Assembly (NCBI RefSeq): GCF_002077135.1
Contig: NZ_LDOS01000002.1
Span: 124,001-188,000 of the forward strand
DNA length: 64,000 nucleotides
Direction: 5' to 3'
From: Metallibacterium scheffleri
GTDB lineage: Bacteria; Pseudomonadota; Gammaproteobacteria; Xanthomonadales; Rhodanobacteraceae
In this document: piece by piece, positions 1,999-37,948 of the stretch
How the letters are laid out: every line of letters begins with the position of its first letter
How positions within the stretch are numbered: position 1 is the first letter of the stretch
Position numbers and translations under genes: made by a program
Notes under the pieces: model-generated
Seen by the model: only the letters and a program-made list of their open reading frames with translations
What the model was told of the DNA's origin: nothing
Databases searched by the model: none

Positions 1999-2066
1999 GG
2001 TCGAGCCTCGCTTGTGCCGCGACGAGGTTAGCGCGGTCGCGCGGCAACGCAAGCCGCGTGGCGTCG

Positions 2067-2621: not shown

Positions 2622-3922
2622 GCAGAGCGCTTTCGGGTGTGTTGAGTCGCAGGAGTTTGCTCCGCGTAGATCAGAAATTGGATGGGCACTTCGATCCATG
2701 CCGCAACCGGCTTGCCATTCCGGGTCGCAGGCTTGAAATGCCACTTGGCAGCCGCCTGCAGCGATGCGTTGACCAGGTTTTGCGCTGGCTGCGGGCCGGG
2801 CTTGTGTACTTGCTTGATGGACAGCGGCATGCCCTGTGTGCCGACCAGAACGGCCAGATAGACCGTGCCCTGCTCGTGCTTTTTGACTGCGTCGATGGGG
2901 TAACGCGGCGGCAACTTGTCGTTGACGCTGATGTCTTGCGTGGGTGGATTCATGCCGGCCACGGTGCGTGTGGCGATCGGCACGGCGCTGTGCGCGGCCA
3001 GCACCGCGCCGCCGAGCAGAATCAGAATGAGGGTTGTTCCAGCAGCGCGCCGCCGAGCAGAACGACGGGTTTGTGCAAGCATGGCGATGCGCTCCTTGAG
3101 TTGGCGTGGGTGCGAGACGCCGCTGCCGAGCGGCAGCGGCAGGGTGGATGCGGCCTGCAGCAGGGTGCCGGCGTAACTGCGCAATGCCGGGGGCTGCCGC
3201 GAGGCGAACAGGCGCGCATCGCAGGCCACCTCCTGGTCCAGGGCGAAGGTGCGCTGCGCCCATGGGCGCAGCGGATGCCACCAGAACAGTGCGCCGAGCA
3301 GGGCGGCCAGCAGATTCCACCAAGCATCGCCCTGCGCGCGATGGCACAACTCGTGGTGCAGGATCTGCCACCGTTGCGTGGCATCGAAGCGCCGTTCGAA
3401 ATCCGGCGGCAGCAACAACAGAGGGCGCGGCGCCCACAGCAGCGCCGGGCCAGCCGGGTGGCGGCGGATGTCCAGACGTGCGTGCCGGCCCTCGACACCA
3501 TGCCGCGCCAGCGTGTCGCCGGGGAGCACGCGCAGCGCCAGACGCAGGGCGGCGTAGCGGCCCAGCAACACGAGCAGCGCGCAGGCGGAACCGAACAGCC
3601 ACAGGCCGACCAGCAGCGTGCCGATCCAATCGGGCAGCAGCGAGGCCACCGGCGCGGTCGTGCCCGATCCCGCGTGCGCGAGCACGATGACGGATCGAGT
3701 CAGCGCCGGCCAGCGCAGCGGCGCCAGCGGCCACAAGTTTGCCGCGAGGCTGGCCAGCATCGCGACTGGCGGCAACAGCCACAGCGCGTAGGCGCAGCGC
3801 GGACCCGCCAGCGCGCGCAGCGGACGGCGCAGCGCCAGCACGGCGAGCAGGCTGGTGGTGAACCATGCGGCCAGCGCGGGCGTGGCCAGCAGCAGCGCGT
3901 GCGGCAGCATGTCGGCGCTCAT
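2618..3922 (-). CDS. M56 (BlaR1-type) membrane metallopeptidase fused to a TonB C-terminal domain
   Basis: A 434-residue inner-membrane protein. Several hydrophobic helices in the first 130 residues precede a zinc-peptidase motif HELCH at 190-194, followed by 'FALDQEVACDARLFA', the third-ligand region typical of peptidase M56. A later transmembrane helix ('TTLILILLGGAVLAAH') leads to a periplasmic TonB_C domain with PRYPIDA and KWHFKPA. M56 proteins such as BlaR1/MecR1 are sensor-proteases that inactivate a BlaI repressor. Here the sensor is a TonB-like domain rather than a penicillin-binding domain, so the signal is probably not a beta-lactam. The start overlaps the regulator stop (ATGA, 3919-3922). 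Confidence 0.85.
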   Translation of the reverse strand: MSADMLPHALLLATPALAAWFTTSLLAVLALRRPLRALAGPRCAYALWLLPPVAMLASLAANLWPLAPLRWPALTRSVIVLAHAGSGTTAPVASLLPDWIGTLLVGLWLFGSACALLVLLGRYAALRLALRVLPGDTLARHGVEGRHARLDIRRHPAGPALLWAPRPLLLLPPDFERRFDATQRWQILHHELCHRAQGDAWWNLLAALLGALFWWHPLRPWAQRTFALDQEVACDARLFASRQPPALRSYAGTLLQAASTLPLPLGSGVSHPRQLKERIAMLAQTRRSARRRAAGTTLILILLGGAVLAAHSAVPIATRTVAGMNPPTQDISVNDKLPPRYPIDAVKKHEQGTVYLAVLVGTQGMPLSIKQVHKPGPQPAQNLVNASLQAAAKWHFKPATRNGKPVAAWIEVPIQFLIYAEQTPATQHTRKRSA

Positions 3923-15912: not shown

Positions 15913-17148
15913 GTGGCGCGCCGCACACCCCTACGCAAATCAGCAGGCAAGGAACAGGCCCCGGCCCAGGTCGGCGCAGCCCGCGCCGCGCCGCGGGTCA
16001 CGGCGACCGCGGCCAAGGACGCGCTGCACCAGCACGTCGCCGAATACGCGGAAATCGCGCTGGTGCTGCAAGGTGGCGGCGCGCTGGGTGCCTATCAGGG
16101 CGGCATCTACGAGGCGCTGGACGCGGCCGCTGTGCGCATCGATCGCGTCGCCGGTATTTCCATCGGCTCGATCAATGCCGCGCTGATCGCCGGCAATCCG
16201 CCCGCGCAGCGCGTCAAGGCGTTGCGCGAATTCTGGCATCGCGTCACGCGGCAGCCGCTGTTGCCGCCCTCGCCGTGGGAGTGGTTCGAGGATGCGCTGG
16301 AATGGCCCGCGCCGCTGCGCGAGTGGCAAGGCCACATCGAAGGCCTGCGCGCGATCATGGAAGGCCAGCGCGGATTTTTTCATCCGCGCCAGGATCTGCT
16401 GCAGAGCCCGCACTTCACCAGCTTCTACGACACCGCGCCGCTGCGCGCCACGCTCGAGAGCCTGGTGGATTTCAAGCTGCTCAATAATGGCCCGGTGCGC
16501 ATCAGCGTGGCCGCGGTCAACGTGCAAAGCGGCAATTTCGAGATCTTCGACAGCGCCGAGCAAACTCTGGGGCCGGAGCACATCATGGCCTCGGGCGCGC
16601 TGCCGCCAGGATTTCCGCCGGTGCAGGTGGGGGACCAGTTCTACTGGGATGGCGGGCTGGTTTCCAACACGCCGCTGATGCAGGTGCTGGGCGGGCATCC
16701 CAAGCGGCACACGCTGGTGTTTCAGGTGGATCTGTGGAACGCCCAGGGTGCGTTGCCCAGGGACCTGGCGCAGGTGCTGTCGCGGCAGAAGGACATCCAG
16801 TTCTCCAGCCGCACGCGCGCGGCCACCGATCTGCTGCAGCGCGCCCACGAGCAGCGCCACATCCTGCGCGAGCTGCTGACGCGCATCCCGCCCGGCAAGC
16901 GCGATGCGCTGTGCGACCAGGTGGCCGAGATGGCGCGCGACGAGCGCTACAACGTCGTGCACATGATCTACCGCGACAAGCCGATGGATGGCCAGGAAAA
17001 GGATTACCAGTTCGGCCGTCGCGCCATGTTGCGCCACTGGGCCGCGGGCCGCGCGGATACGCGCGCCACGCTGGCCCATGTTGACTGGTTCGCCTTGCCC
17101 GATGCGGAGCACCCGTTCCGCACGCACGATCTGCATCGCGGCGGCTGA
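15913..17148 (+). CDS. patatin-like phospholipase (DUF3734 type)
   Basis: A 411-residue patatin-family acyl hydrolase. The oxyanion motif GGGALGAYQGG (54-64), nucleophile Ser83 in GISIG, and Asp246 in the DGG motif (YWDGGLVSNTPL) make up a complete catalytic dyad. The C-terminal extension (about 300-400) matches DUF3734. The start is GTG 15913 with AGGAG at 15901-15905. No signal peptide, so cytoplasmic or peripheral. Third gene of the adc-bdhA-patatin cluster, a grouping seen in other gammaproteobacteria. A role in lipid or PHB-granule turnover is inference. Confidence 0.9.
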   Translation: MARRTPLRKSAGKEQAPAQVGAARAAPRVTATAAKDALHQHVAEYAEIALVLQGGGALGAYQGGIYEALDAAAVRIDRVAGISIGSINAALIAGNPPAQRVKALREFWHRVTRQPLLPPSPWEWFEDALEWPAPLREWQGHIEGLRAIMEGQRGFFHPRQDLLQSPHFTSFYDTAPLRATLESLVDFKLLNNGPVRISVAAVNVQSGNFEIFDSAEQTLGPEHIMASGALPPGFPPVQVGDQFYWDGGLVSNTPLMQVLGGHPKRHTLVFQVDLWNAQGALPRDLAQVLSRQKDIQFSSRTRAATDLLQRAHEQRHILRELLTRIPPGKRDALCDQVAEMARDERYNVVHMIYRDKPMDGQEKDYQFGRRAMLRHWAAGRADTRATLAHVDWFALPDAEHPFRTHDLHRGG

Positions 17149-23199: not shown

Positions 23200-23313
23200 G
23201 TAGAGTCGGGATGTGGCGCGGTGGCGTTAGGTTCGGCATATCGGTTGCCGTCTCTTTCGATTGACGGTGCCTTACTGTCCGAACCGTGACTCCGTTTCCA
23301 CATCCCTCTCATC

Positions 23314-23346
23314 GAACCGGACATGCAGATCTCCCGCATCCGGCTC
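23314..23346 (-). ncRNA. group II intron domain V
   Basis: Read on the minus strand: GAGCCGGATGCGG, then GAGATCT, then GCATGTCCGGTTC. This is the catalytic stem with the AGC-type triad near the 5' side and matching lower and upper helices. It lies 12 nt after the stop of the maturase 3' fragment, as expected. The remaining ~114 nt to the 3' splice site should include domain VI, which I could not fold with confidence. Confidence 0.8.
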
Positions 23347-23358
23347 TCGGACAAGACC

Positions 23359-23445
23359 TCACGCCTTCGTCCACGGCTGGTCACACGCAAGTGCGGTCAG
23401 ACGTACGAGACCAAAATGCCCGTAGAGGTGCGAGAGTGGATAAGT
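23359..23445 (-). pseudogene. group II intron maturase, 3' fragment
   Basis: The frame reads ACTTAT (Thr-Tyr), then PLSHLYGHFGLVRL and ends WTKA-stop at 23359-23361, the standard C-terminus of bacterial group II intron reverse transcriptases. The missing N-terminal part is at 26091-27398, on the other side of the IS21-type element. The hexamer ATAAGT (23440-23445) is repeated at 26091-26096 and is the likely target duplication. Confidence 0.85.
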
Positions 23446-23450
23446 TGCAT

Positions 23451-23531
23451 ATTCCGGTCAAGAGAAGCCAGCATTCCGGCGCATGGGAAGCCAGCGTTCC
23501 GGTTGATGGGAAGCCAGCATTCCGGTTGATG
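23451..23531. repeat. IS21 left-end repeats
   Basis: Three full repeats start near 23462, 23486 and 23509 (GAAGCCAGC[A/G]TTCCGG), plus a terminal partial ATTCCGG at 23451. They are oriented opposite to those at 25973-26086. Confidence 0.85.
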
Positions 23532-23575
23532 AGAGGACAGCAGGCGGCGACGCAGTCGGGTGAGGTGAACGGAGT

Positions 23576-24325
23576 CTAGTTTCTGTCGGTGGCGTTGTCC
23601 TGTGCAGGCGGCGATGGGGGTTGTTTGCGCAAGGACTCGCCGTTGAGTTCGACGGTTTCGGCGCCGTGGACGAGGCGGTCGAGGATGGCGTCGGCGAGGG
23701 AAGGATCGTGGAACTGGGCGTGCCAGAGTTTGAGCGGCAGCTGGCTGGTGACGATGAGGCTGCCGCGCTGATGGCGGTCTTCGAGGAGTTCGAGCAGCAG
23801 GGGCTGATGGACGGGGGCGAGCGGGACGAGGCCGAAGTCATCGAGGATGAGCAGGTCGATGCGGCTTTGGGTTTTGAGCCAATGGCTGAGGCGGCCTTGG
23901 GCGTGGATGGCGGTGAGTTCCTCGCCGAGGCGCGGCAGGCGCAGGTAGCGGACGGACTTCTTCTGGTCGATGGCGGCCTTGGCGAGGGCGCAAGCGAGAT
24001 AGCTTTTGCCGACGCCGGTGGGGCCGAGCAGCAGGAGGTGGTGGTGCTGGCGCAGCCAGTTGAGGCTGAGCAGGGCGTGCCAGCGGGTTTTGCCGAGGCC
24101 GCGCGGGGTACGCAGGTCGACGTCGGCGGGATGGGCGTGCTGGGGGAGTTTGGCGAGTTTCAGGCGCCGGGCCTGGGCGAGGCTGTCGCGATGCAGGGAC
24201 TCGGCCTCGAGCAGGAGCGCGAGGGCATCGAGGAGTGCGTCGTCGGGTTGCAGCCGGACCAGGGCGTCGGCGGCGCCGCGCAGGCCGAGGCGGGCGAGTT
24301 GGGCATGCAGGGGTTCATGCAACAT
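23576..24325 (-). CDS. istB: IS21-family helper ATPase IstB
   Basis: A 249-residue DnaC/DnaA-like AAA+ ATPase that helps the IstA transposase with target selection. Walker A is GPTGVGKS (101-108) and Walker B is 'RIDLLILDDFG', followed by 'LIVTSQLPLKLWHAQF' (sensor region). The start at 24325 overlaps istA by 11 bp. Full length, no frameshift. Confidence 0.93.
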   Translation of the reverse strand: MLHEPLHAQLARLGLRGAADALVRLQPDDALLDALALLLEAESLHRDSLAQARRLKLAKLPQHAHPADVDLRTPRGLGKTRWHALLSLNWLRQHHHLLLLGPTGVGKSYLACALAKAAIDQKKSVRYLRLPRLGEELTAIHAQGRLSHWLKTQSRIDLLILDDFGLVPLAPVHQPLLLELLEDRHQRGSLIVTSQLPLKLWHAQFHDPSLADAILDRLVHGAETVELNGESLRKQPPSPPAQDNATDRN

Positions 24326-25919
24326 GGTGGGGCTCCAGGGTGAAGGGGGTGCTGGGCGCTTCAGGCGTCCTGCCGCCCGCGGCACTCGCCCTTCCATGGG
24401 CGTCGTAGTAATCGCCGCCGCGGATGTGCTCGTGGGTGCGCGGCGGAGATGACGGCGCGTCATGGGCGTCGCGGACGATCGGAGTGGTCAGCAAGCGGCG
24501 CACGGACTGGTAGCCGATGGCCTGCAGTGCGAGGGCGCGGGTGCAGGCCGTCTCCAGGGCGGCGGGGCCGTGATCGCGCGCGAGGGCGAGCACGCCCTGG
24601 GCGCTGCGGATGGCTTGTTCGGGATGGCGGCGCTGGGCGAACAGGGCCTCGATCAACGCGAGCGTGTTGGGGCCGATGGCGGCGGCGCGCCGGTGCAGTT
24701 TGGGATCACGGAAGGCCTGGTGGTGCGCGGGCATGTGCGCCGGATCGGTGACGAAGCGCTGCGTGGGCGCAGCGCGGCGGTGCAGCGCGATGCGCGTATC
24801 GCGTTGCAGGACCTCGACGTGGGCGGTGGTCAGCCGCACCTCGACGGTCTGGCCGACATGGGCATAGGGCACGCTGTAGTACTGGCGATGGACGTCGACG
24901 TGGTAGTCGCGGGCCACCTTGCGGGTCAGGTAGGTGGGGACTTCGAAGCGCTGCGCCGGCAGCGGTGCCAGATGGGGCCGCTCCTGCGCCAGCAGGGCTT
25001 GGCGCGAGCCCACGCGCTTCTGGAAAGGCGCGGCGTTGAGCGCGGCCACGGCTTCCGCCAGCCAGGCATTGAGCTGGTCCAGTGAGCCAAAGATGCGGTC
25101 CCGGGCGGCCGCCAGGATGCGCATCTCGACGATTTTGACCGCGCCCTCGACGCTGGCTTTGTCCTTGGGTTTGCGTACCCGCGCCGGGATGATCGTGATG
25201 CCGTAGTGGCGGGCGAAGTCGGCATACACCGCCGTCAGCCGCGGCTCGTAACGGTCCGGCGCGGCGATCAGGGCGCGCGGGTTGTCCGGCACGCCGATCT
25301 GCGGCACGCCGCCGAACGCCACGAAGGCCTGGTGTTGGCCCTGCAGCCAGCTCGTGGCGGTCTGATCCGCAAACCCCTGTGCATGGATCGCATTGGAATA
25401 GCCCAGCGCCGCCACGAAAATCTGCGCCGGACGCACGGCGTCGCCGTCGGCATAGCGCAGGGTCAATCCGGCAAAGTCGAAGTACGCCTTCTCGCCCGGC
25501 ACGTGATCATGCCGGTAGCTCAGGTCGCGGTCGGCGGCATACGCCGCCAGCTCATCGCAAAACACGCTGTAGCCAATGCCCTGCGCATGCCGCGCACGGT
25601 ATTCGTTCCACAGCAGACGTCGCGTGACGCCCTTGCGCCCCAGCTCACGCACCACCAGGGCATAGTCGGGCCGCGCCTGGATGCGCACGTGACTCGGATG
25701 CGGCGCACGTTGGTACAGACGCCGCTCCAGCTCCACATCCGTCAGCGCCGGATCCGGCGGCCAGCCCAGCCCGGCCGCGACATGCCGCTTGAACACGCGC
25801 TCCACCGTCGAGCGCGCCACCCCCAGCGCACGCGCGATCTCGCGCTGGCTGAGTCCCTGGTCAAAGTGCAAGCCAAGTACTTCTCGGATCTGTCGCATCA
25901 GCAGTCTCGGTTGAGTCAT
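24315..25919 (-). CDS. istA: IS21-family transposase IstA
   Basis: A 534-residue DDE transposase. The N-terminal helix-turn-helix ('GLSQREIARALGVARSTVERV') is followed by a catalytic core with Asp148 (YFDFAG), Asp212 (GVPDNPR) and Glu258 (ASVEGAV). The C-terminal segment includes the beta-barrel-like 'YYSVPYAHVGQTVEVRLT'. Intact length for the family. It is transcribed in the same direction as the interrupted intron maturase. Confidence 0.93.
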   Translation of the reverse strand: MTQPRLLMRQIREVLGLHFDQGLSQREIARALGVARSTVERVFKRHVAAGLGWPPDPALTDVELERRLYQRAPHPSHVRIQARPDYALVVRELGRKGVTRRLLWNEYRARHAQGIGYSVFCDELAAYAADRDLSYRHDHVPGEKAYFDFAGLTLRYADGDAVRPAQIFVAALGYSNAIHAQGFADQTATSWLQGQHQAFVAFGGVPQIGVPDNPRALIAAPDRYEPRLTAVYADFARHYGITIIPARVRKPKDKASVEGAVKIVEMRILAAARDRIFGSLDQLNAWLAEAVAALNAAPFQKRVGSRQALLAQERPHLAPLPAQRFEVPTYLTRKVARDYHVDVHRQYYSVPYAHVGQTVEVRLTTAHVEVLQRDTRIALHRRAAPTQRFVTDPAHMPAHHQAFRDPKLHRRAAAIGPNTLALIEALFAQRRHPEQAIRSAQGVLALARDHGPAALETACTRALALQAIGYQSVRRLLTTPIVRDAHDAPSSPPRTHEHIRGGDYYDAHGRASAAGGRTPEAPSTPFTLEPHHVA

Positions 25920-25972
25920 GGGAACCCCGCGGGCAAAACCCGCGAGGATGACTCACCTCAACTGCGCGCCAG

Positions 25973-26086
25973 CTGGCTTCCCATGAACCGGAATACTGGC
26001 TTCCCATGCTCCGGAATCGTGGCCTCACATCAACCGGAACACTGGCTTCCCATGAACCGGAATGCTGGCTTCACATGAACCGGAAT
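25973..26086. repeat. IS21 right-end repeats
   Basis: Five tandem but spaced copies of CTGGCTTCCCATGAACCGGAAT-like sequence (from about 25973, 25995, 26019, 26042 and 26064). They are inverted relative to the left end. These extend the truncated maturase reading frame by a few meaningless codons. Confidence 0.85.
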
Positions 26087-26090
26087 CTCC

Positions 26091-27398
26091 ATAAGTCCCG
26101 CCCCGACTTCGTCTGACCTTGTGCTTGGTGCGCAACCACCGGCGCAACCGCGTCGCAGTGTAGCTGTCGAGCGCCCGGTAGGCGCGACTGACCGTTCCTA
26201 CTTGAAAGTAGTTCGCCCAGCCGCGCAGCGTGCGATTCAACGTGCCCACCAGCTCCGTGGTCTCTTGCCACGTCAGCGATACCGCTGTCATCGCATGGAC
26301 CTTCTCGACCATGCGCCGGATGCTCTTCTTCGACGGCCGCATGCCCAGACGGGCCTTGCCGGTCGTGCGCGAATACATCCGCCCAAACGTGTAACCCAGG
26401 AAATCGAACTCACCTTCCGGGACCTTGCAGATGCGTGTCTTCTCCTCGTTGACCGTCAGCTTCAGCTTGCCCATGAGCTCACGCAGGCAGGACAAGGCCT
26501 CTTCGGCCTTGCCCCGCCGGCACAGGATCACGAGATCGTCGGCGTAGGTCACAATGCGAGAGCCAAGGCGTTGCTCCAGTCCGAGCTTCTTCCATCCCAG
26601 CACAAAGCGGCGCATGTACAGATTGGCCAGCAGCGGCGAGATGGGGGCACCCTGCGGAATGCCGCGGCGCTGATCCTTGGCTGCGGTCGCGCGTGTCTTC
26701 CGGCCTCGATCGTCGGTCTGCTCCACGGAGCACTCCAGCCACATCTTCAGCAGATGCAGCACCCGCCGGTCCACGATGCGTCGCACCAGCGAGCGCATCA
26801 GTTCGGCGTGCGGAATGCTCCCAAAGTAGTCCGCAAGGTCGGCGTCCACGACGTCCAGATGTCCTCGGAACAACGTCTCCTCCACCTCGATCACCGCCTG
26901 CTGGGCATTGCGGCCCCGCCGGTAGGCGTACTGCTCGGGTGGAAGGTCGGCTTCGATGATCGGATCGAGCACCAGCATCGCTGCTGTCATGCACACCCGA
27001 TCCCGCAGGGTCGAGATGCCCAGTGGCCTGAGCTTGCCCGTGGCCTTCGGGATGAACACACGTCGGATGGGGTCGGGTCGGTAGGTCTCCTGCCTGAGCG
27101 CAAGCGCCAGTTCACCGAGCCACTGCTGCACCCCGTATGCCTCGACGGCCGCGAAATCCTGACCGTCCACACCCGGTGCGCCCTTGTTGGCGCGGCACTG
27201 GGCATAGGCGTGAGCCAGAACATCCTCACGGCTGATCTTGTCGTACAGGGCGTAGAAGCGATACCCGGCTTCCGCCTTCGCTTTCGCGTGTAACGCCGTC
27301 TGCAGCTTCTGAACGCTTTTCGGAGTTGCTAGGTTGCCCAATCTCCTGTCCCTCGCCACGTCTTGCGTCTGTCTTGAACCAAGGCCCCTTCCCTCCAC
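26091..27398 (-). pseudogene. ltrA: group II intron reverse transcriptase/maturase, 5' fragment (disrupted)
   Basis: About 436 residues of a group II intron-encoded protein. Reverse-transcriptase blocks are visible: 'KGAPGVDG', '[12 protein letters not shown]', '[17 protein letters not shown]' and the catalytic YADD (285-288), followed by the X/thumb domain '[19 protein letters not shown]'. The frame reaches RRSRGGTY and then enters the IS21 end repeats, so the last ~28 residues are displaced to 23359-23445. The open frame continues in the IS to 26025 only by chance. The RT domain itself is complete; splicing/maturase activity is probably impaired. Confidence 0.9.
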
Positions 27399-27836
27399 CG
27401 GCGTTACCCGGCTTCGTCGGTACTACGAGCCTCTCCGTCACCCCAAGGCGCCCGGCCTGTCCCTCGCGGGCGTCCGGTCGATCATCGCTGACCACGCCAT
27501 GGGGCTTCCCGTGTTGCGCGCGCTTCCCTTGTGTACATGCTGTCGCCACTACCCCGGCGCAGCGGCTGGCGGTCCTGCTTCGCTCATCCCTCCAGCCGTA
27601 TCAGCCTTCCCCGAAAGGGCCATCGGGTCGGCCTGCGCATCGTCCTTTTCGAGGCTTGCTCGGCGTTCACTCGCGTTACGGCCTGTACACTCGCGCTGTC
27701 ACCGTATGTCGTGACACGCTTAACCGAAGGCTTCAGCCATTTCGTTGCCTCCATGACTGCTCCGGTTGCTTCCGGCTGGAGCGGTTGCCGGGTGGGACTT
27801 GCACCCACTGGAAAGCGCCGCCTTCTCACGGCGCAC
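27399..27836 (-). ncRNA. group II intron 5' ribozyme region (domains I-IV part)
   Basis: 438 nt from the 5' splice site GTGCGCC to the maturase start. It holds GC-rich inverted repeats and 'GGGTGCAAGTCCCAC', a motif commonly found near the start of domain I. No protein gene is supported here; an overlapping frame at 27226-27549 is a shadow. Individual domains were not resolved. Confidence 0.6.
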
Positions 27837-27895
27837 ACCCGTAGAAGACATTCGTTACTACCGCTAGAACTAGATGCTTGAGAACGGGTCACACA

Positions 27896-28768
27896 ATGCA
27901 CATCGAAGAAAATTGTGAAACCTTGGACGAATTTTGGGATGCAATTTCGCCGCTCGGGAGACATTTCGGAGACCATCCAAGTGGCAAGGTAACTAACTTT
28001 GTCTACCGGGGCCATGGAAACGCTGATTGGAAGCTAATTCCAAAGATCTACCGATCGGAAGTACTAGCGGACGCTAAACTTGGAATGCAGGTGACACGCA
28101 AAGATTATTCAGGACACTTCTTTTTCGAGTGGGGTCTGCTAGAGAGATTCATGCACTTTTGCGACACGACAGGCCTAGAAATTCCGAACGACTCAACTGA
28201 GTTCCGCAAAATGTTTTCCTGGGCGAGCATGCAGACACGCCATGTTACAAGAACTCACGGATGGCCTGATGATTGGGCCATCCCTTTGATTGCTTTAGCA
28301 CAACATCACGGACTTCCCACGCGGCTGCTTGATTGGACTTACAGCTCTTATGTAGCAGCCTATTTCGCCGCCGAGTCTGCAGTAAGATTAAAACTCAGCG
28401 ACCCGGGTGCTAGGCTCGCGATTTTTGGCTTCGATCTGGATTGCATTCGGTTGGTAGATAGTCTCAAGTACATCACCGTCTCAGGCAGCACTTCGCCTAA
28501 CGTATCGCGCCAAGGTTCTTTGTTTATTTTAGTAGACAATAGCGGCTACATCGGCGACGAGTTTATTCGTGACGTTTCACTTGAGTCGAAAATTAAGGAT
28601 CACCAAAACTCGCTCATTAAGATTACTCTGCCTGCGGCAGAGGCGGCAAATTTATTGTTGCGCTGCCTAAAGTTCGGGCTGTCAGCAGCTACGATGTTCC
28701 CTGGCTACGACGGAGCGGCACGTGCTGTACTGGAAATAAAGGCAGCACAAAACTACGAAGCGTTTTAA
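27896..28768 (+). CDS. FRG-domain protein
   Basis: A 290-residue protein with the FRG signature: 'FVYRGHGNADWKLIPKIYR' (about 36-53) and 'ALAQHHGLPTRLLDWTYSSYVAAYFA' (about 134-158). FRG proteins are named for a conserved F/Y-R-G and are often found in bacterial defence and stress islands; the biochemical activity is unknown. ATG 27896 is preferred; TTG 27878 is in frame. No good Shine-Dalgarno. The gene is strikingly AT-richer than the core chromosome. It lies just 60 bp outside the group II intron and 85 bp before a membrane-protein gene on the same strand, its likely partner. Confidence 0.85.
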   Translation: MHIEENCETLDEFWDAISPLGRHFGDHPSGKVTNFVYRGHGNADWKLIPKIYRSEVLADAKLGMQVTRKDYSGHFFFEWGLLERFMHFCDTTGLEIPNDSTEFRKMFSWASMQTRHVTRTHGWPDDWAIPLIALAQHHGLPTRLLDWTYSSYVAAYFAAESAVRLKLSDPGARLAIFGFDLDCIRLVDSLKYITVSGSTSPNVSRQGSLFILVDNSGYIGDEFIRDVSLESKIKDHQNSLIKITLPAAEAANLLLRCLKFGLSAATMFPGYDGAARAVLEIKAAQNYEAF

Positions 28769-28853: not shown

Positions 28854-29612
28854 ATGAATATCCTCGAGACAATTCTAACTTCTTCATGGCTTGGCACTGT
28901 ACTTGGCGTATTGGGCGTTGTTTTGTCTATTGTTTTTTATCTGCGCTCAAAGAACAACCTAAGAGTTGCCTATTTGCAGACTTGCGAATTATTGATTGGC
29001 GGCGAGGGAGCCTTGCCTGATTCCATGGAAATTAAGTACAAGGGAAATACGGTCTCGCAACTTTGGCGATCTACTTTCGTAATCTGGAATTTGGGGGAAG
29101 TGACAATTGATGGCGATGCAGTAGTTGAATCGGACCCTCTACGAATCCACTTCCAAGGAGATAGCGCAGAAGTTCTCGCGGTGGAAGTGGTTCGAGTAAC
29201 GCGATCGGTCATTGGATTAAAAGCCGCTATTGATGTCAAAAGGAATATTCGCCTGGCATTTGAATATTTAGATCACGGCGATGGCGCGCTCATCTCAGTT
29301 CTGCACACAAGTGGCCGGCCAATACTTTTAGGGTCAATCAAAGGGCTCCCACATGGTATTGAGTATCGCGGATCGGTTGATTCCGGGGGCTTTAAAGTCC
29401 CGCACGGTACTTCTGATGCGGCGCTCTACCTGGCGATGCTTTTGTGGTTGGTTATTGCGACTGCGCTCCACTTTGCAGTCCGCATTTCCATGCACAATTC
29501 CTCCTTGTGGTCAGGAATTGTCGTGGGATGTGTGTTGCTGTACGCAATCGTCAAGGTGATGGCTGCACCCCGTGCGCCGCAGTCGCTCTGGCAGCAGTCA
29601 GGTGATGTCTAG
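28854..29612 (+). CDS. membrane protein with one N- and two C-terminal helices, FRG-gene partner
   Basis: A 252-residue protein that I do not recognise as a named family. It has a transmembrane helix at about 11-30, a ~150-residue beta-rich soluble domain ('STFVIWNLGEVTIDGDAVVESDPLRI'), and two closely spaced helices at 190-209 and 221-236. Such a layout suits a membrane effector or anchor. It follows the FRG gene closely on the same strand and shares its low-GC composition, so the pair probably moved together. A defence role is inferred from context only. Confidence 0.7.
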   Translation: MNILETILTSSWLGTVLGVLGVVLSIVFYLRSKNNLRVAYLQTCELLIGGEGALPDSMEIKYKGNTVSQLWRSTFVIWNLGEVTIDGDAVVESDPLRIHFQGDSAEVLAVEVVRVTRSVIGLKAAIDVKRNIRLAFEYLDHGDGALISVLHTSGRPILLGSIKGLPHGIEYRGSVDSGGFKVPHGTSDAALYLAMLLWLVIATALHFAVRISMHNSSLWSGIVVGCVLLYAIVKVMAAPRAPQSLWQQSGDV

Positions 29613-29991: not shown

Positions 29992-32900
29992 ATGAAAATA
30001 TTCAACAACGGCCGTGGAATTCACGTTCGTGAGGTTCCTGGGTTAGACAAGCTCAAGGCCCTACCAGACAGTTGGCAGGCATTTACGAACCTCGATCTGT
30101 CGTTGCCGGGAAAAGGCACGCGAGAAATAGACGTGGTTCTCGTAACAGAAGATCGCCTTCTGCTGGTCGATTTGAAGGACTGGAAGGGGCCGATCAGTAG
30201 TCGTGATGGCAATTGGTTCAATGGAAACCGTAGCAACGGTCGATCTCCCGTAGGAAAAATCGCCGAGATCGTGCGCGAACTTCATCCCATCCTAAAGAAA
30301 TCATTATCAGAGCAGGCCAAGAAGGAAGGCTTAATTGATTCCCTGCCCACGCCGATGATCCAGTCGGCAGTAGTGCTGACGAATAGTAAGGACCGGACTC
30401 AGATTGCCGATAATGAGTCAGCGTTCGTCTTCCACATAGATGACTTCGTCAAGGTTGTCCGAAATAAGGATGAAAGAATCAAGGCCTTTGGCCCTGTCTA
30501 TTTCGAAGACTTCACGAGCGAAGCCTGGATACAGCGGCTCAGACGCTTCTTCAATGTGGGTGGTGGAATATTCCAGGTTGGCAAGCGCCATTATGGTGGT
30601 TTTGTAGCGCGTAGTGACACATCCACGTTCCAGCATCCTGGTGAAGTCTATGCTGAGTTCAACGTGGAGGAGTCTGGAATCGACAACTCCTTTGGGCTCT
30701 TGCGCCGCTGGGATTTCTCAAAGGCCGACACGCGATTTCAGACTGAAATTGGCCGCGCGGAAATAGCGGGTCGCGAAAGGAAGGTTATCGCTTGGTTGGA
30801 TGATCGAAATCCTAAATGTGGTGAGTCGATTTTTAAACCAAAGGCGGAGGATCCGGAACGTGGTGTCTCTTACTGGGAAGTTTTCGAGCGCCGACGACGG
30901 ATGAAGCGCCTGAGCGAATTTACTCAGTCGGAGTTCCCTGGTACCACCGCAGGAGAACGCGTCTCCCTGGCGCGACAAGTTCTGTCGGCGGTGGCCCCGA
31001 TTCATGCCTTGAACGCCGCGCACCTGGACTTGGGCGCTCACAGCGTATGGGTGGAGCTACCAAGTACGGTAAGGCTCTCGCACTTGATGGCCGCATCTTT
31101 ACCTGAAGTCCAAACCCTAGGCGAATCTCGGTTTCAGTTCCTTTCAACTACCTGCGTGCCCGAGGACATCCTTGGTGGGCCAGTCGATTTACTTCGCAAG
31201 GATGCATTCCTATTGGGCTGTGTGATTCACGCTTTGTTATTCGGGGAAGTTCCCCGCGGCGAGCCGCCGGAATGGAACAGTGCAATTGATGCCGACGGAG
31301 AGTTCTCGACCCTACACCCATGGTTCGAGAAATGTCTGGACATGGACCAGTCCAATCGGTTCAGTGACGCGGGCAAGATGCTTGAAGCGTTCAACGTTGC
31401 CCTTGTCACGGGCAGTGACGAGAAGTCGACAATCGAGGGGCTTGAGCGTTACCGGACGTTGAAGACGCAGAGGGACGTTTTTAAGGCCTATCCAGAAACG
31501 GAACTTATAAGCGACGATGAACGAGCGATTATCTGGAGAGCGGACTCGGAAGAACAACTTCGCCTCGTAAAGATGTGGCAGTCGCTCGCGCTCGGAAACG
31601 TCGTTAAGGAGCGTTCTAGGATCTTGGCGTTCTTAGATCATGCTCAACAATTGGCAGAGGCCCCGCCTAAGGGATCTGCTCGACTGCTGAGTGTGCATTG
31701 GACCGGCGACGCAATTGTCCTAGTTCAGGAGTATGTCCCCGGTAAAACGCTTGCGGAGAGCCTAGAGTCCGGCTCATTTGGCGAGGCAGCTGCGACGATA
31801 GAGTTCGTCATCCAGCTGATCGATGTAGTTGAGAACCTGCATGGGCGGACGGTGGCTCATGGAGACATAAAACCAGACAACATTGTTGTGGATGAAAGCG
31901 CGGGCAAGCCAATACCCGTTCTCATTGACATAGCCGACTACTCATCCGCCCAGGACGGGTCTCGCCGATCCCGGGCCTATTCACCCGCTTCGGGTGGAAG
32001 ATTCGAGCGAGATCGCTATGCAGTGACAAAGATCGCAGAGGATCTGCTAGCGAGGCTGGACATTCATACGGAAATGGCTCGACGAATCGAAAAGGCCGTC
32101 GAGGAATGTCGCATGGGTCCGCCAGCGAACGGGACATTGCTACCACTGCGCGAGGCTCTCGAATTCGCTACGAAATCACCCATTGAAAGTGAGCTGCCGA
32201 GTTTCACAATCGGGCTTCCTCGCGCTGAGTCTGGCCCGATGCTTCCTGACGAAGGGCAGTTCTGGATAGTTAAGGGCGACAAGCGGCTCAGAATCGTTGG
32301 CGCAGTCGAGGAGATTTCGGTCGAACTAGACGCTAACGGAGCGCCCGCTAAGGCGTGGCGCAACAAACTTGAGCAAGCGCAGGCATCTCGGCTCACAAGG
32401 CAAAAGGTCTGCGGATTTCGCGCAGATCTAGTGATCGAGGGTGGGCGGAGTCAGCTAGAGGCTATTTCGTCGATCCTCGAACTGCCAGAGGTTGCGGCCG
32501 CACTGACCGCGCCACCAGCGCAGATAGAGGACGAAAGCGGGCAAGAGCTGTCTCAAGTCGCCAGTATCGAGGCAAAAGAGGACGAGCTAGTAGAGCGAGA
32601 GCTAGCTGGCGAGGGTGAGACTGCGAGTAGGTTGGATGTGCCGCTATTGTGGGAGCGTTCGATTCGGATCGAAGGTGAACTCAAGACGGAGGTTCTCGCC
32701 TTAGGTGACAGCACGTATCGCTCACAATCGCGTCTCCACGTATTGCCGATTCAGTTATCGGTCGGAGATCTAGATTTCGATCGAAAGGACGTAGTTGCAG
32801 TCGAGCGGCTCGACAGTAGCGGTATTTGGCGCAAGATCGGAGCCCTCGACGTTCAAAAGACGTCCGCGGACGCTTTGGCCATCCACGGTTACGGGGACGG

Positions 32901-34914
32901 CTCCCGAGGTCCCATCGTTCGCGATGGCGACCGTTTACGGTTCCAAAGTCGCATGGAGAACACGAGCTGGCAGCGCCGAGAGGAGGCAACGAGTCGAATT
33001 CTCAGGAGAAACTCCGTTGCTCCTGAACTGCTCGATGCCTTTTATCCGGCCACAGGAAAGTTGCCGCGCGACGTCGCCGTTGAGGTGGAAGAAGAGCTAC
33101 TGGTGGAACGTTATAGGCTCAACCCAACGCAAGTGGCCGCGTTCAAAGGGATCGTCACGCATCGGCCGTTGGGCTTACTACAGGGGCCGCCCGGAACAGG
33201 GAAAACGCGCTTCATTGGTGCGCTGGTGCACTACGCGCTAACTCACGGGCTAGCGCGAAACGTGCTGGTGGCCAGCCAGTCGCATGAGGCTGTCAACAAC
33301 GCGGCAGAGGCAGTACTGACCCTGTTCGGTAAAGACCGAGACTCGCTAAGCATGATTCGGGTTGGTGCCGAGGGCCAAGTTTCCGAATCGTTGAGGCCAT
33401 ATCACGCCGCTGCCGTCGAACGAGCATACAAGGATGACTTTGTCGCGACCCGCGAACTGAGAATGAGCGTCGTTGCGGGATTTCTCGGGTTGAGCCAGGC
33501 CGAATGTGAGGCCGTGATGTTCTTTGAAGACACGGTCCGGCCCATACTGGCCCGTGTCTCTGAGTTGGTCGAGACAAGCAGCGAAGCCGCCCGAATCAAC
33601 TCATTAAAGGAAACTGTGCAACAGCGCCTGCTAGATCGCGGCATCGACGTCAACCTGTCGGAGGTTGAGCCGAGCGAGGTCGAGGACATGGTCACCTCGA
33701 TCTTCTTCTCTAGGCTTCCGAATGAGACTGCTCACAGGGTTGAGCGACTTCGACACATTGCAGAGCTCGGACGGGACATCGTCGGAACCGTCTCTACCTG
33801 GCAGAGGAGTTACGAAACCTTCCTGGCCGGCACCCGGCAAGTAGTCTCGGGCACGTGCGTAGGCCTTGGTCGTTCTTCCTTAGGGCTCACGAAGACAGCC
33901 TTTGATCTCGTGATTGTGGATGAGGCAGCGCGTTGCACTCCGAGCGAGCTGGCGGTTCCGATACAGGCGGGGAAGTGGGTCGTGTTAGTGGGCGACCACG
34001 CGCAACTCGAACCCCAGCATTCTCCCGACGTTGTGGATGCTCTCACGAGGGAGTTGAAGATAGCGGCGGCCGAGGTAGTCAAGAGCGATTTTGAACGCGC
34101 ATTCGAGTCGGCCTACGGCATACGGGCGGGGCATACGCTGAAGAAACAGTATCGAATGCTTCCGCCAATCGGCAGATTGGTTTCCAATTCGTTTTACACA
34201 CGAGCTCTGCAGCACGAGCGGACCACGCCGGAAATTCCTCTGGAGGCCTTGCCGCCTGAGTTGGCGGTTCCGCTCGTGTGGGTGAGTACTGACACGATGG
34301 GCGCCAGTGCATATCAGAGAAGCGGAGGTACTAGGCGGGGGAGTTTGCAGAATGCCGCCGAGGCGGATGTGATCGTCTGGCTGCTTAAGCGATGGTCCGA
34401 ACACGAGTTGTTCTTGAATTGGATCAAGACTTTGCCGGACGGGAAACAGGCGATCGGTGTTATATGCGCGTATGCGGCACAGCTTGAGCTCGTGAGAGGA
34501 AAGCTTCAGTCCGAAAGCCTCCCAGAAGTATTCAGACGTACAATCAAGGTTGACACCATCGACAGCTACCAAGGCAAAGAAAACCTCATCGTGATTCTAT
34601 CGCTGGTTCGAAACAACGCAGATGGAATCAAGGATCGTGGGGCGCCCACAATACAACCAGGTTTTATGGCGAAGAAGAATCGAATCAATGTTGCCCTAAG
34701 TCGGGCGATGGATCGTCTCGTCATCGTGGGTGCAAAGGCAGCATGGAGAGAAGGATCTCCGCTTGGTGCTGTTTCGGCCGGTTTCGACGAAGAAGCCAAA
34801 GGCAATGACGCCATGCTCCTGAACGCGTCCGAGCTTCTGGTTTCGCCAAAATCGGCGAAGAAGGGAAAAGCAAAGGCTGCTAGCCACACCAAGCAAAAGG
34901 TAGGTGGCGCATGA
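29992..34914 (+). CDS. NERD nuclease-pseudokinase-kinase-SF1 helicase fusion, candidate defence protein
   Basis: A 1,640-residue multidomain protein. Residues about 1-130 form a NERD (PD-(D/E)xK-like) nuclease domain with 'TREIDVVLVTEDRLLLVDLKDW' (Asp47, Asp60, Lys62). Residues about 200-480 look like a degenerate protein kinase ('AAHLDLGAHSVWVE' in place of HRDLKxxN). Residues about 500-730 contain a second kinase domain with HGDIKPDN (623-630) and 'VLIDIADYS' for the metal-binding loop. A linker leads to an SF1-type helicase: Walker A GPPGTGKT (1065-1072), VDEAA (1309-1313), 'KKQYRML' and 'TIDSYQGKEN' (about 1522-1531). Kinase plus NERD recalls PglW of type 2 BREX, but no other BREX gene is present. 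The gene overlaps its downstream partner by ATGA. Confidence 0.88.
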   Translation: MKIFNNGRGIHVREVPGLDKLKALPDSWQAFTNLDLSLPGKGTREIDVVLVTEDRLLLVDLKDWKGPISSRDGNWFNGNRSNGRSPVGKIAEIVRELHPILKKSLSEQAKKEGLIDSLPTPMIQSAVVLTNSKDRTQIADNESAFVFHIDDFVKVVRNKDERIKAFGPVYFEDFTSEAWIQRLRRFFNVGGGIFQVGKRHYGGFVARSDTSTFQHPGEVYAEFNVEESGIDNSFGLLRRWDFSKADTRFQTEIGRAEIAGRERKVIAWLDDRNPKCGESIFKPKAEDPERGVSYWEVFERRRRMKRLSEFTQSEFPGTTAGERVSLARQVLSAVAPIHALNAAHLDLGAHSVWVELPSTVRLSHLMAASLPEVQTLGESRFQFLSTTCVPEDILGGPVDLLRKDAFLLGCVIHALLFGEVPRGEPPEWNSAIDADGEFSTLHPWFEKCLDMDQSNRFSDAGKMLEAFNVALVTGSDEKSTIEGLERYRTLKTQRDVFKAYPETELISDDERAIIWRADSEEQLRLVKMWQSLALGNVVKERSRILAFLDHAQQLAEAPPKGSARLLSVHWTGDAIVLVQEYVPGKTLAESLESGSFGEAAATIEFVIQLIDVVENLHGRTVAHGDIKPDNIVVDESAGKPIPVLIDIADYSSAQDGSRRSRAYSPASGGRFERDRYAVTKIAEDLLARLDIHTEMARRIEKAVEECRMGPPANGTLLPLREALEFATKSPIESELPSFTIGLPRAESGPMLPDEGQFWIVKGDKRLRIVGAVEEISVELDANGAPAKAWRNKLEQAQASRLTRQKVCGFRADLVIEGGRSQLEAISSILELPEVAAALTAPPAQIEDESGQELSQVASIEAKEDELVERELAGEGETASRLDVPLLWERSIRIEGELKTEVLALGDSTYRSQSRLHVLPIQLSVGDLDFDRKDVVAVERLDSSGIWRKIGALDVQKTSADALAIHGYGDGSRGPIVRDGDRLRFQSRMENTSWQRREEATSRILRRNSVAPELLDAFYPATGKLPRDVAVEVEEELLVERYRLNPTQVAAFKGIVTHRPLGLLQGPPGTGKTRFIGALVHYALTHGLARNVLVASQSHEAVNNAAEAVLTLFGKDRDSLSMIRVGAEGQVSESLRPYHAAAVERAYKDDFVATRELRMSVVAGFLGLSQAECEAVMFFEDTVRPILARVSELVETSSEAARINSLKETVQQRLLDRGIDVNLSEVEPSEVEDMVTSIFFSRLPNETAHRVERLRHIAELGRDIVGTVSTWQRSYETFLAGTRQVVSGTCVGLGRSSLGLTKTAFDLVIVDEAARCTPSELAVPIQAGKWVVLVGDHAQLEPQHSPDVVDALTRELKIAAAEVVKSDFERAFESAYGIRAGHTLKKQYRMLPPIGRLVSNSFYTRALQHERTTPEIPLEALPPELAVPLVWVSTDTMGASAYQRSGGTRRGSLQNAAEADVIVWLLKRWSEHELFLNWIKTLPDGKQAIGVICAYAAQLELVRGKLQSESLPEVFRRTIKVDTIDSYQGKENLIVILSLVRNNADGIKDRGAPTIQPGFMAKKNRINVALSRAMDRLVIVGAKAAWREGSPLGAVSAGFDEEAKGNDAMLLNASELLVSPKSAKKGKAKAASHTKQKVGGA

Positions 34915-36431
34915 GCGGTACTCGTCGCGTGCTTTCGTTGTCCAAGCCGGCAACAGGAGGCGAACCGGAGCCGACCGACGTTCGAGTACCCGTCGGGATT
35001 TTCGACGTGCAACTTCCGGCCAGACAGTTTGTGGTGAAGTACAAAGCGGCTGAAGTTGGCGATGTGTCGCTAACGACCGAGTTCTTGCTGCGGCTGTTAT
35101 ATTCCGCCGATGGTTTGTCGGAGGAAATTGCGGCAGATTTCTTTGGCTTCAACGCCAACGAAATGGCGTACGTTGTACGTGACGCCGAAGCTCGAGCCTA
35201 TATATCTCGCTCCGATGGGCGCATCTGGCTAACAGATGCCGGCAACGCCCTCTTCAAGGAGGGCGACAAGCCGCAGATCTACGACGTCGTCAAGAAAACG
35301 GAGAGGATTGGATTTGATTTGCTCTCTCTTGCGCCGTGCGATCGTGAGTCCCAATCCGAGTTCGAAAGATCGTTACCTGAGCTTGCAATTCGAGATCCGA
35401 ATCTGGTGGCCAACGCTTCGAGGCATATTCCAGAGTCCTTTCGCAGATTTTACGGAGAAATTTCAAGCCGAAGGGACAGGGAGGCGGTGGATCAACTTAA
35501 GAGGTCCTTGTACTCGGTCGATGATGTAGTCGCTGGCGACCGATTTGCTGCAATCGTCCCGTTCGTCGCCATGGCCTCAGTTCGGCGGCCTAGTGAGCCA
35601 GAGGCGCTTCTGGAGAAGTGGAGAACAGGGCAGGAACTCGCCGACCGAGACCGAGTCGTGCATGGTGTGGCCGAGTTTCTGGAAAATCTGCGGACTCTAA
35701 AGACTCCTGAGGATGCCAACGCGTTCGACGTCTTGGCGACTATCGCGCCAGAGTACCTAAAGGAGTATGTGAATCGCTCTGGTTTTGCGCCGCTTCGCTA
35801 CTTCAAGGCGTTGGCTGGGCGCGCCGGTGAGTTGCGCCGCAATAGACCCACTGTTGGCATTGTTGGAGCGCTATATCAACCTGAGAACGCCGAGCGAATT
35901 GCAACGGCTATCGGCTACGCGAACGATCGCGCGCTTGGCAATGACGACGTCTTCTTGTGGGTCGTGCCGAAGCAGCCGGCATGGGGAGCGTCGCGATCCT
36001 TCCTGGACCTTCTCGAAACGCTCGCAAAGGAAGGCGTTGATATAGACGCTACGGGCAGGAAGATGGAGCGTTCCCCCATCTTAATTGACGAAGGCAAACC
36101 TCAGTGGCGGCTGATCAAAGCTGCTCCCAGAACGTACTGCAGGCCAAATACTGGGGCGATTCCAAGCTCGCTTGAAGTTCTCCTGATTCCACGCAGAGTT
36201 TCCGCCGTTGTCGTTCACGCGCCAATTGGCGAGGATCGTGGATTTCCGATTCCGCTGGGTATTCTCAGCTTTGATGCGACCATTGTTCGCCGCGTTCATC
36301 AGTATCTTACGGATCACCTGCCAGCCGAGGTGACGAAGTACGGTTCAATGGATGGATTTAACGCCCGGAGCTGTCTTGAATGGAGCCAAGATACCGGCGC
36401 GGAAGCTGTTCCGAACTCCGAGACGAGTAAA
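34911..36431 (+). CDS. unknown partner of the NERD-kinase-helicase protein, 3' end overwritten by IS
   Basis: About 507 residues up to the IS1111-type element; the open frame continues to 36509 through IS sequence (from SKKRLPASNG onward). No family recognised. The N-terminal ~120 residues include a likely winged-helix stretch ('LTTEFLLRLLYSADGLSEEIAADFFGF...YISRSDGRIWLTDAGNALF'). The middle is helical, and residues about 305-400 have alternating strands and helices ('PTVGIVGALYQPENAERIATAIGYA'). ATG 34911 overlaps the previous stop (ATGA), so the two are one operon. Whether the native C-terminus is lost or only the stop codon is unclear. Confidence 0.7.
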
Positions 36432-36433
36432 AA

Positions 36434-36504
36434 GAGACTTCCCGCTTCCAACGGCCTCGAGGGCCATGATGGTTTTTACAACCGTCAGCAGAAGGGGAAG
36501 TCTC
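36434..36504 (+). promoter_or_regulatory. inverted repeat that can sequester the transposase ribosome-binding site
   Basis: GAGACTTCCC (36434-36443) is the exact complement of GGGAAGTCTC (36495-36504), which includes the AGGGGAAG Shine-Dalgarno directly before ATG 36506. In a transcript entering from outside the stem would hide the start site. The 51-nt loop holds further small hairpins (GGCC-tcgag-GGCC). Confidence 0.5.
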
Positions 36505-36505
36505 G

Positions 36506-37603
36506 ATGAGCACTATAACCATGGGCGTGGATTTGGCGAAGAACCTGTTTTCCGTATGTGCGGTGGATGGCGCCGGACACGTGCAGCGGCGGCAGGATCT
36601 CGGGCGTGAAGCGTTTGCGCTGTGGCTGGCGCAGGTGCCGGCCGGCACCGTGGTGGCGATGGAGGCATGCAGTGGCGCGCACCATTGGGCGCGGCGCTGT
36701 TTGGAGGTCGGTCTGCAGCCGCGCTTGATGGCGGCGCAGTTCGTGACGCCGTTCCGCAAGAGCCGCACACTGAAGAACGACCGCAACGACGCCGAGGCGA
36801 TTGCCACGGCGGCACGCCAGGGCAACATGCGCTTTGTGCCGGTCAAGTCGGTCGAGCAGCAGGCGCGGCTGGCATGGCATCGCGTGCGCGAGGGCTACAA
36901 GACCGAAGGGCTGGAGATCAGCAACCGCCTGCGCGGTCTGCTGGCCGAGTTTGGCATCGTGATGGCGCAGGGTGACCGGGCGTTGCGCATCGCCTTGGCG
37001 GATCTCGACGCAGCGGCATCGTTGCCTGCGGAGCTGAAGGAACTGCTGCGCGATCTCAGCGCGCACTGGGCGCAGGTGCGCGACCGCATCGCCGCGTGCG
37101 ATGCGCGCATCGAAGCGCACGCCAAGGCGGATGAGCGCTGCGTGCGGCTGCGCGCGCTGATCGGCATTGGCCCGCTCACCGCCGATGCGATGGTGGCGAG
37201 CGTCGGCTCGGCCAAGGAGTTCAAGAACGGCCGGCAACTGGCCGCATGGCTCGGCCTGGTGCCGACCCAGCACTCCAGCGGCGGGCACACCCGCCTGGGC
37301 ACGATCAGTTGCCGCGGCGATGCCTACCTGCGCACGCTGCTGATCCAGGGCGCGCGCAGCAGCCTGCAGCGCGCCAAGGTGACTGCACAGGATCGGGCCA
37401 CGCCCGAGCAGATCTGGATCCGCCAACTGGCGTGTCGGATGCCGTTCGGCAAGCTGCTGGTGGCGATTGCGAACAAACACGCGCGGCAACTGTGGGCGAT
37501 GCTGGCGCGCGAGGAAGCCTACGACGCCGAGGCGTGGCTGAAGCACCCGATGGTGCAGCGCCCGGCCGGCAAGCGCGCGGTGAGGATCGCCGGCATGGCA
37601 TGA
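36506..37603 (+). CDS. IS110-family transposase (DEDD recombinase)
   Basis: A 365-residue transposase. The RuvC-like DEDD residues are Asp9 (MGVDLAKN), Glu53 (AMEACSG), Asp92 and Asp95 (KNDRNDAEAI). The C-terminal Transposase_20 half has 'LIGIGPLTADAMVASVG' and 'AAWLGLVPTQHSSGGHTRLG', with the serine region found in this family. IS110 recombinases are guided by a bridge RNA encoded in the element. Length is normal and the frame intact. Confidence 0.93.
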   Translation: MSTITMGVDLAKNLFSVCAVDGAGHVQRRQDLGREAFALWLAQVPAGTVVAMEACSGAHHWARRCLEVGLQPRLMAAQFVTPFRKSRTLKNDRNDAEAIATAARQGNMRFVPVKSVEQQARLAWHRVREGYKTEGLEISNRLRGLLAEFGIVMAQGDRALRIALADLDAAASLPAELKELLRDLSAHWAQVRDRIAACDARIEAHAKADERCVRLRALIGIGPLTADAMVASVGSAKEFKNGRQLAAWLGLVPTQHSSGGHTRLGTISCRGDAYLRTLLIQGARSSLQRAKVTAQDRATPEQIWIRQLACRMPFGKLLVAIANKHARQLWAMLAREEAYDAEAWLKHPMVQRPAGKRAVRIAGMA

Positions 37604-37935
37604 CACGAACGCACATCCTTTCACGTCAGCGCGAAGTGGTCGACAACGGTCAGACCGACCCGGAGAGAACCTGACTAACCTGCCGGACGTCACCCCGTGT
37701 TTCGGCTGATCCCCGAACACCGACGATACCGAAAGACGAACGAGGTCTCCGGGTGCGGTTTATACCCTGGTCCGCGCCAGCATCAGCGGCGCAACAAGAC
37801 CGTTTATGGAAATGCAGTCTGACATTCGTTGCATCACCACGCAGCACTGACACGCACGACGCAGCAAAGAGGACAACACGATGACCAGCCATGGCCCGAA
37901 AGCTCAAGGCAAGAACCTCAAGCGCGCGGCGTTGA
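37604..37935 (+). ncRNA. candidate bridge-RNA region in the IS right flank
   Basis: 332 nt without a supported gene, between the transposase stop and the right inverted repeat. In IS1111-type elements the bridge RNA that specifies target and donor is encoded in this position. The sequence has several possible hairpins (for example around 37660-37720), but I could not define the loops. Call by position and family knowledge only. Confidence 0.4.
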
Positions 37936-37948
37936 CGGGAAGTCTCTT

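Follow-up and report, generated by a model that had tools for sequence, protein, structure and literature searches.

A probable Mokosh type I locus of the NERD form in Metallibacterium scheffleri, and a suggested exchange of effectors among Mokosh forms

We examined a pair of overlapping genes of Metallibacterium scheffleri within 64,000 nucleotides of contig NZ_LDOS01000002.1 (assembly GCF_002077135.1, positions 124,001 to 188,000 of the forward strand). This whole stretch is called the window, and positions are counted from its first letter. A preliminary description had reported a giant protein with a NERD domain, two kinase domains and a superfamily 1 (SF1) helicase, followed by a second gene, and had proposed the pair as an unnamed candidate anti-phage system. 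The 1,640-residue open reading frame (ORF) and its ATGA overlap with the second gene are both where that description placed them. The pair is very probably Mokosh type I, mkoA-mkoB, an anti-phage system that already has a name; the copy is almost complete and belongs to the form with a NERD nuclease-like domain in the large protein. The features of the locus are:

29992 to 34914, forward strand: mkoA, assigned to the NERD form of Mokosh type I, with NERD, pseudokinase, kinase and Upf1-like SF1 helicase (1,640-residue ORF; PADLOC; Pfam)
30049 to 30378, forward strand: NERD nuclease-like domain, MkoA residues 20-129, with D47, D60 and K62 (Pfam PF08378, E-value 3.4e-10)
30679 to 31401, forward strand: pseudokinase, MkoA residues about 230-470, boundaries approximate and set by eye (HLDLGAHS at 344-351; PDB kinase profile match)
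31489 to 32151, forward strand: kinase, MkoA residues about 500-720, boundaries approximate, with K527, HGDIKPDN at 623-630 and D646 (Pfam Pkinase, 9e-14 at 565-660)
33118 to 34737, forward strand: SF1 helicase core, MkoA residues 1043-1582 (Pfam AAA_11 and AAA_12; PDB profile matches)
34911 to 36509, forward strand: mkoB (532-residue ORF; PADLOC MkoB model PDLC03923; compared with two relatives, L003 of 510 residues and L005 of 507 residues)
36432 to 37948, forward strand: IS110-family insertion sequence (IS) element, outer ends set by inverted repeats, possibly beginning a few bases earlier (NCBIfam NF033542, 5.6e-95)
36506 to 37603: IS110-family transposase

The assignment is made because both proteins match the PADLOC models for MkoA and MkoB near full length. 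The large protein matches the MkoA model PDLC03921 with an E-value of 0 and 1597.9 bits (residues 1-1615 against positions 1-1603 of 1607), and the second protein matches the MkoB model PDLC03923 at 3.6e-103 (residues 25-476 against positions 7-443 of 454). The second protein had been described as unassignable, which holds for Pfam, where it has no family, but not for PADLOC. The pair had also been offered as new unless a named system of the same architecture existed; PADLOC Mokosh type I is such a system, and the locus is not new. What the NERD form does have is a nuclease domain of its own in the large protein.

Published definitions of Mokosh differ in one point that matters here. The available text of PMC11672841 gives type I two separate genes, one for an RNA helicase and one for a PLD nuclease, together with a serine/threonine kinase domain, and type II as a single gene, MkoC, with the helicase followed by the PLD domain. 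A table in the available part of PMC10952713 includes NERD among the type I domains. In the window, an MkoA with serine/threonine kinase and RNA helicase of the COG1112 type was recognized through PADLOC, Pfam and Upf1-like PDB matches, rather than through COG1112 itself. The separate adjacent mkoB gene was recognized by its PDLC03923 match and the ATGA overlap, and mkoB also lies directly 3' of mkoA in 17/17 NERD-form relatives that were opened (12/12 in L003-L014 and 5/5 in L056-L060). Type II was tried and rejected: MkoC matches at 2.1e-25 (best stretch 1445-1583), but the window has two genes, and PLD was not found.

The domains of MkoA follow each other as previously described, with Pfam placing NERD first, then Pkinase, AAA_11 and AAA_12, and both of the kinase motifs quoted there, HLDLGAHS and HGDIKPDN, are in the sequence. 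Conservation was counted in 18 MkoA sequences: 13 aligned (the window and L003-L014) and five more (L056-L060). The NERD residues D47, D/E60 and K62 are kept in 17/17, since the frame of L058 is without that region, and these conserved catalytic residues agree with the NERD domain listed for type I. In the first kinase, H344 and D346 are kept and the catalytic Lys and DFG are absent in 18/18, so the earlier reading of this domain as degenerate stands; profile positions 310-424 of MkoA match PDB kinases. The second kinase has D625, N630 and D646 in 18/18 and K527 in 17/18. AAA_11 covers residues 1043-1341 (6.3e-34) and AAA_12 covers 1364-1582 (1.1e-36), six checked helicase motif residues are conserved in 18/18, and the best PDB match of the MkoA profile is Upf1/NAM7 over the helicase (1.5e-54), with Sen1 and DNA2 also matched. 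An AlphaFold2 model of MkoA residues 1-743 had a mean predicted local distance difference test (pLDDT) score of 51.5 and was too poor for use.

At its 3' end, mkoB runs into the IS110-family element, which now supplies the final codons in place of the gene's own last few. The element is bounded by 13-bp inverted repeats (36432-36444 and 37936-37948). By comparison with L003 and L005, native mkoB codons reach to about 36424-36431, or about 504-507 residues, and the last 25-28 or so codons and the stop of the present ORF are IS sequence. The preliminary description had ended the second gene at 36431, with about 507 residues; this is close to the end of native mkoB sequence, but the ORF continues to 36509 and 532 residues. 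The genome holds eight further near-complete matches to the IS query (100% as printed), plus partial ones, and this query ended before the right end of the element; those eight copies match from about 36421-36424 onward.

A winged helix had been proposed in the second protein. Near MkoB residues 56-107, the wHTH-PRTase_assc model matches weakly in 5/13 members (best E-value 0.0048), and a local HHH-EE element is seen there in the model, but that AlphaFold2 model (four sequences, mean pLDDT 34.7) is too poor for use, so the winged helix is probable at most. The MkoB alignment against Pfam gave nothing else assignable.

The pair is accessory and sporadic. Among 99 genomes of relatives, mkoA was found at E-values up to 1e-50 in one, the window's own, and the pair is in 0/98 others. 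In a sample of the order, mkoA is in 2/398 genomes, the second being of a NERD-less form, and a phylum-wide sample has it in 7/398, the window's own included. Because of this distribution and the near full-length MkoA and MkoB matches, an anti-phage function of the locus is supported. Of the earlier proposal, the defence role thus stands and the unnamed status does not.

The relatives opened as L003-L014 come from three loci of one search, eight opened of 166 plasmid records and one opened of four phage records. Of the 166 plasmid records in PLSDB with an MkoA relative (E-value up to 1e-30), 107 are named Acinetobacter, a count uncorrected for sampling, so the family is common on Acinetobacter plasmids in that database. 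On plasmid 1 of Polaromonas sp. JS666 (L010), mkoA-mkoB is embedded in a BREX type 1 cluster, with pglX on one side and pglZ on the other. The record of Pseudomonas phage vB_PaeS-D14H (L012) has mkoAB between integrase genes, an arrangement suggestive of a prophage or an integrative element as the carrier. A search of viral_contigs gave three loci with partial helicase matches only. Broken-looking copies of mkoA also occur: L058 (8.0-13.0 kb) has an internal stop, and L062 ends beside an IS3 element.

A PLD nuclease was looked for across loci because the available text of PMC11672841 gives one to type I. None of 34 type I and type-I-like loci combines NERD in MkoA with a PLD domain or HKD motif in MkoB. 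Three architectures were found. The window's own, the NERD form (18 loci), has NERD in MkoA and no HKD motif in MkoB. In the second (13 loci), NERD is missing from MkoA, and the PLD nuclease, recognised by its domain or by an HKD motif, is in MkoB. The third (three loci) has neither and carries a gene for a PP2C phosphatase. A profile of the NERD region found no match in 16/16 NERD-less loci, and 12 of these 16 have one or two HKD motifs in MkoB. In L082, MkoB (1790-3535, reverse strand) has a PLDc_2 match at 7.5e-7 and lacks a strict HKD motif; it was counted with the PLD form.

Some limits of scope belong with these counts. Three of the 16 NERD-less loci (L061, L065 and L066) were run against PADLOC, L082 was found with a PADLOC MkoA model, and the other 12 were assigned by MkoB similarity and architecture. 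Two loci were left uncounted, L055 (a partial match near a contig end) and L062 (an mkoA fragment beside IS3). L083, two helicases of one genome found with PDLC03920, was dropped, there being no kinase among the Pfam matches listed (for one protein the best 25 of 32). A canonical kinase loop was not found by pattern in 8/15 NERD-less MkoA proteins, so the kinase of these proteins may be inactive or of a divergent kind, and this weighs against a simple picture.

The NERD and PLD forms share gene order, and the N-terminal half of MkoB appears homologous between them. By hhalign, the NERD-form set aligns with one PLD-form set over 188 columns (96.8%, E-value 3e-10) and weakly with the other over 114 columns (58.5%, E-value 9.6e-5). 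The PP2C-form MkoB aligns with a PLD-form set over nearly the whole protein (442 columns, E-value 3.5e-42), with HKD lost. The PP2C loci (L079-L081, about 6.9-7.8 kb) are on Hyphomicrobiales plasmids, as Mokosh-like pairs with a third gene directly downstream whose PP2C type is given by annotation, and by Pfam on two of the three. A profile of these PP2C proteins found no other at E-values up to 1e-3 in 35 loci, available flanks included. For these three loci, Mokosh-like is the fitting name.

Helicase sequences of 35 rows (L082 left out) gave a tree in which the NERD form falls in one clade (100/99) and the PP2C form in another (100/100), with PLD-form rows on more than one side. Where the NERD clade joins the PLD/PP2C group, support is weak (82/66), and long branches lead to the two outgroup rows and to two PLD rows. 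The root is unsure for these reasons, and with it the direction of any effector change. The counts are also not independent events, since the rows are related and one change per clade would explain them. With these provisos, the distribution of domains suggests that the effector has been exchanged between Mokosh type I forms.

Taken together, these comparisons led us to a tentative joint reading, to which we give somewhat less than an even chance. Mokosh type I would have one core, made of a kinase-like domain, a Upf1-like helicase and an MkoB of shared N-terminal half, and its effectors would be exchangeable. In the window's clade, the nuclease may have moved from MkoB, where PLD was lost, to MkoA, where NERD was gained with the pseudokinase as a cassette also reported from PglW and DndF. 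In the third clade, the PLD site may have decayed and PP2C been added, with reversible phosphorylation perhaps as the output. No account of the NERD/PLD exclusion was seen among the literature matches listed, a coverage outside which most subscription journals lie. As a new defence system the locus would add nothing; its possible value is this exclusion. If it holds in a larger sample, the question of the Mokosh mechanism would come down to simple point-mutation tests, each form having a single nuclease, and a further defence family would be linked to PglW and DndF through the NERD-pseudokinase-kinase cassette.

A mechanism can be proposed for the NERD form, and as a whole it is a possibility that we hold a little more doubtfully still. 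The Upf1-like helicase would engage phage nucleic acid (RNA or RNA-DNA) as the sensor. The tandem pseudokinase and kinase would gate or transmit activation through phosphorylation, and the NERD domain would be the cutting effector. MkoB, probably with an N-terminal winged helix, would serve as a binding partner in which no nuclease site can be recognised, and phage nucleic acid, perhaps host nucleic acid too, would end up destroyed. The available text of PMC11291487 gives the Mokosh mechanism as degradation of viral transcripts.

Several observations weigh against the assignment or the mechanism built on it. The available text of the review PMC12926258 gives the mechanism of Mokosh as unknown. 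K527 of the second kinase is C in L059 (1/18). The separately encoded PLD nuclease of the PMC11672841 wording is not found here: the HxKx4D (HKD) motif is absent from 18/18 NERD-form MkoB proteins, and a PLD match in Pfam is absent from the 14 of 18 that were scanned (13/13 at E-values up to 1, L060 at up to 0.1). In the profile comparison, the C-terminal half of NERD-form MkoB aligned with neither PLD-form set. The idea that this half is a decayed PLD domain was therefore dropped, only N-terminal parts being aligned. The missing PLD is not fatal to Mokosh type I because PADLOC and the available part of PMC10952713 count the NERD form or domain within Mokosh (type I), although the fit to the wording of PMC11672841 is lowered. 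Finally, the function of this copy could have suffered from the IS insertion.

One alternative is that the window holds an unnamed NERD-kinase-helicase defence system which PADLOC lumps with Mokosh. The NERD form is a single clade with its own PADLOC models, its MkoB is without the PLD nuclease assigned to type I, and half of that MkoB is unaligned with the PLD forms. Yet the helicase and the N-terminal half of MkoB are homologous to those of the PLD form, the gene order is the same in both, and two sources count the NERD form or domain as Mokosh; a distinct system is accordingly improbable. That this copy is Mokosh type I made inactive by the IS element is compatible with the preferred assignment, and is unlikely without being far-fetched. 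The element does sit inside the 3' end of mkoB, and the frame now closes in IS sequence, but the PADLOC MkoB match stops at residue 476 of the 504-507 or so native residues, before the IS-derived tail, the lost tail is short and unconserved among relatives, and the checked mkoA motifs are intact.

Two readings outside Mokosh are less probable again. The helicase core is like Upf1, Sen1 and DNA2, as would be expected of a helicase with kinase domains that serves DNA repair or housekeeping. The absence of the pair from all but one of the genomes of relatives speaks against this, as do the locations on plasmids, in a phage record and in an island and, among the loci opened, the BREX genes that flank L010 and the CBASS-like set (SAVED, ThiF, Mov34 and a nucleotidyltransferase) that adjoins the PLD-form locus L070; such a role is very improbable. 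Least probable of all, to the point of being refuted as membership, is a derivative of BREX type 2 (PglW) or MADS (MAD6), though a shared module remains. The NERD and pseudokinase region does match both proteins: PglW at 1.9e-25 (best of two stretches, residues 14-359) and MAD6 at 1.9e-34 (best of two stretches, 22-488). The resemblance to PglW noted in the preliminary description is thus sound as domain homology. The NCBIfam equivalog scores fall far under their cut-offs, with 87.4 bits against 990 for PglW and 119.2 against 460 for MAD6, and MADS membership was rejected on the latter. BREX type 2 would bring PglW together with PglZ, BrxC and PglX; no PglZ domain was found in the genome (BrxC and PglX were not searched for), and for this and the low PglW score BREX membership fails, as previously proposed.

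The surroundings of the pair had been described as a mobile island with other likely defence genes. One tested neighbour outside Mokosh bears this out in part, two genes upstream of mkoA:

27878 to 28768, forward strand: FRG-domain gene, PADLOC candidate defence family PDC-S15 (Pfam FRG 1.3e-21; PADLOC 2.8e-31)

A gene for a VapC-type toxin is also near the pair. Between the FRG gene and mkoA, a 252-residue protein with hydrophobic stretches (28854-29612) has no Pfam or PADLOC family match. At 23200-27810, on the reverse strand, lies a group II intron (D1-D4 at 27671-27810, maturase ORF at 26025-27398, 3' part at 23200-23348), apparently split by an IS21-type istAB element (ORFs 23576-25919). 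Five congeners were examined at radA. In three (G009, G007 and G006), about 56-74 bp separate the DNA of the gene at 15913-17148 from the radA DNA that comes after it; in G002, radA lies about 85 bp after a homologue of position 14004; and the contig of G012 ends too early to show the junction. Since the window's 17.30-20.78 kb is genus DNA located elsewhere in G012, the zone unseen in congeners was set at about 20.8-37.95 kb, with a left boundary that is not sharp.

Among known systems, the closest is the NERD form of Mokosh type I (PDLC03921 and PDLC03923), which the locus resembles in both proteins near full length, in gene order, in the overlap and in the domain set; the sole difference is the mkoB end, supplied here by the IS110-family element. 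The PLD form of Mokosh type I (PDLC03920 and PDLC03922) likewise joins a kinase-like domain to an SF1 helicase, and the MkoB encoded next is homologous in its N-terminal half, but the MkoA of this form is without NERD, no second kinase domain was found in it, and its MkoB bears a PLD (HKD) nuclease. PglW of BREX type 2 and a subset of DndF have NERD, pseudokinase and active kinase at the N-terminus as here, according to the available text of PMC12839542 and PMC10853773; their partner genes differ from the window's, and PglW has other C-terminal domains, an SF1 helicase not being described in that text. The likeness to MAD6 of MADS is the match noted above, best over MkoA residues 22-488. The MAD6 model is named a protein kinase and has 612 positions, a length that appears too short for the window's helicase.

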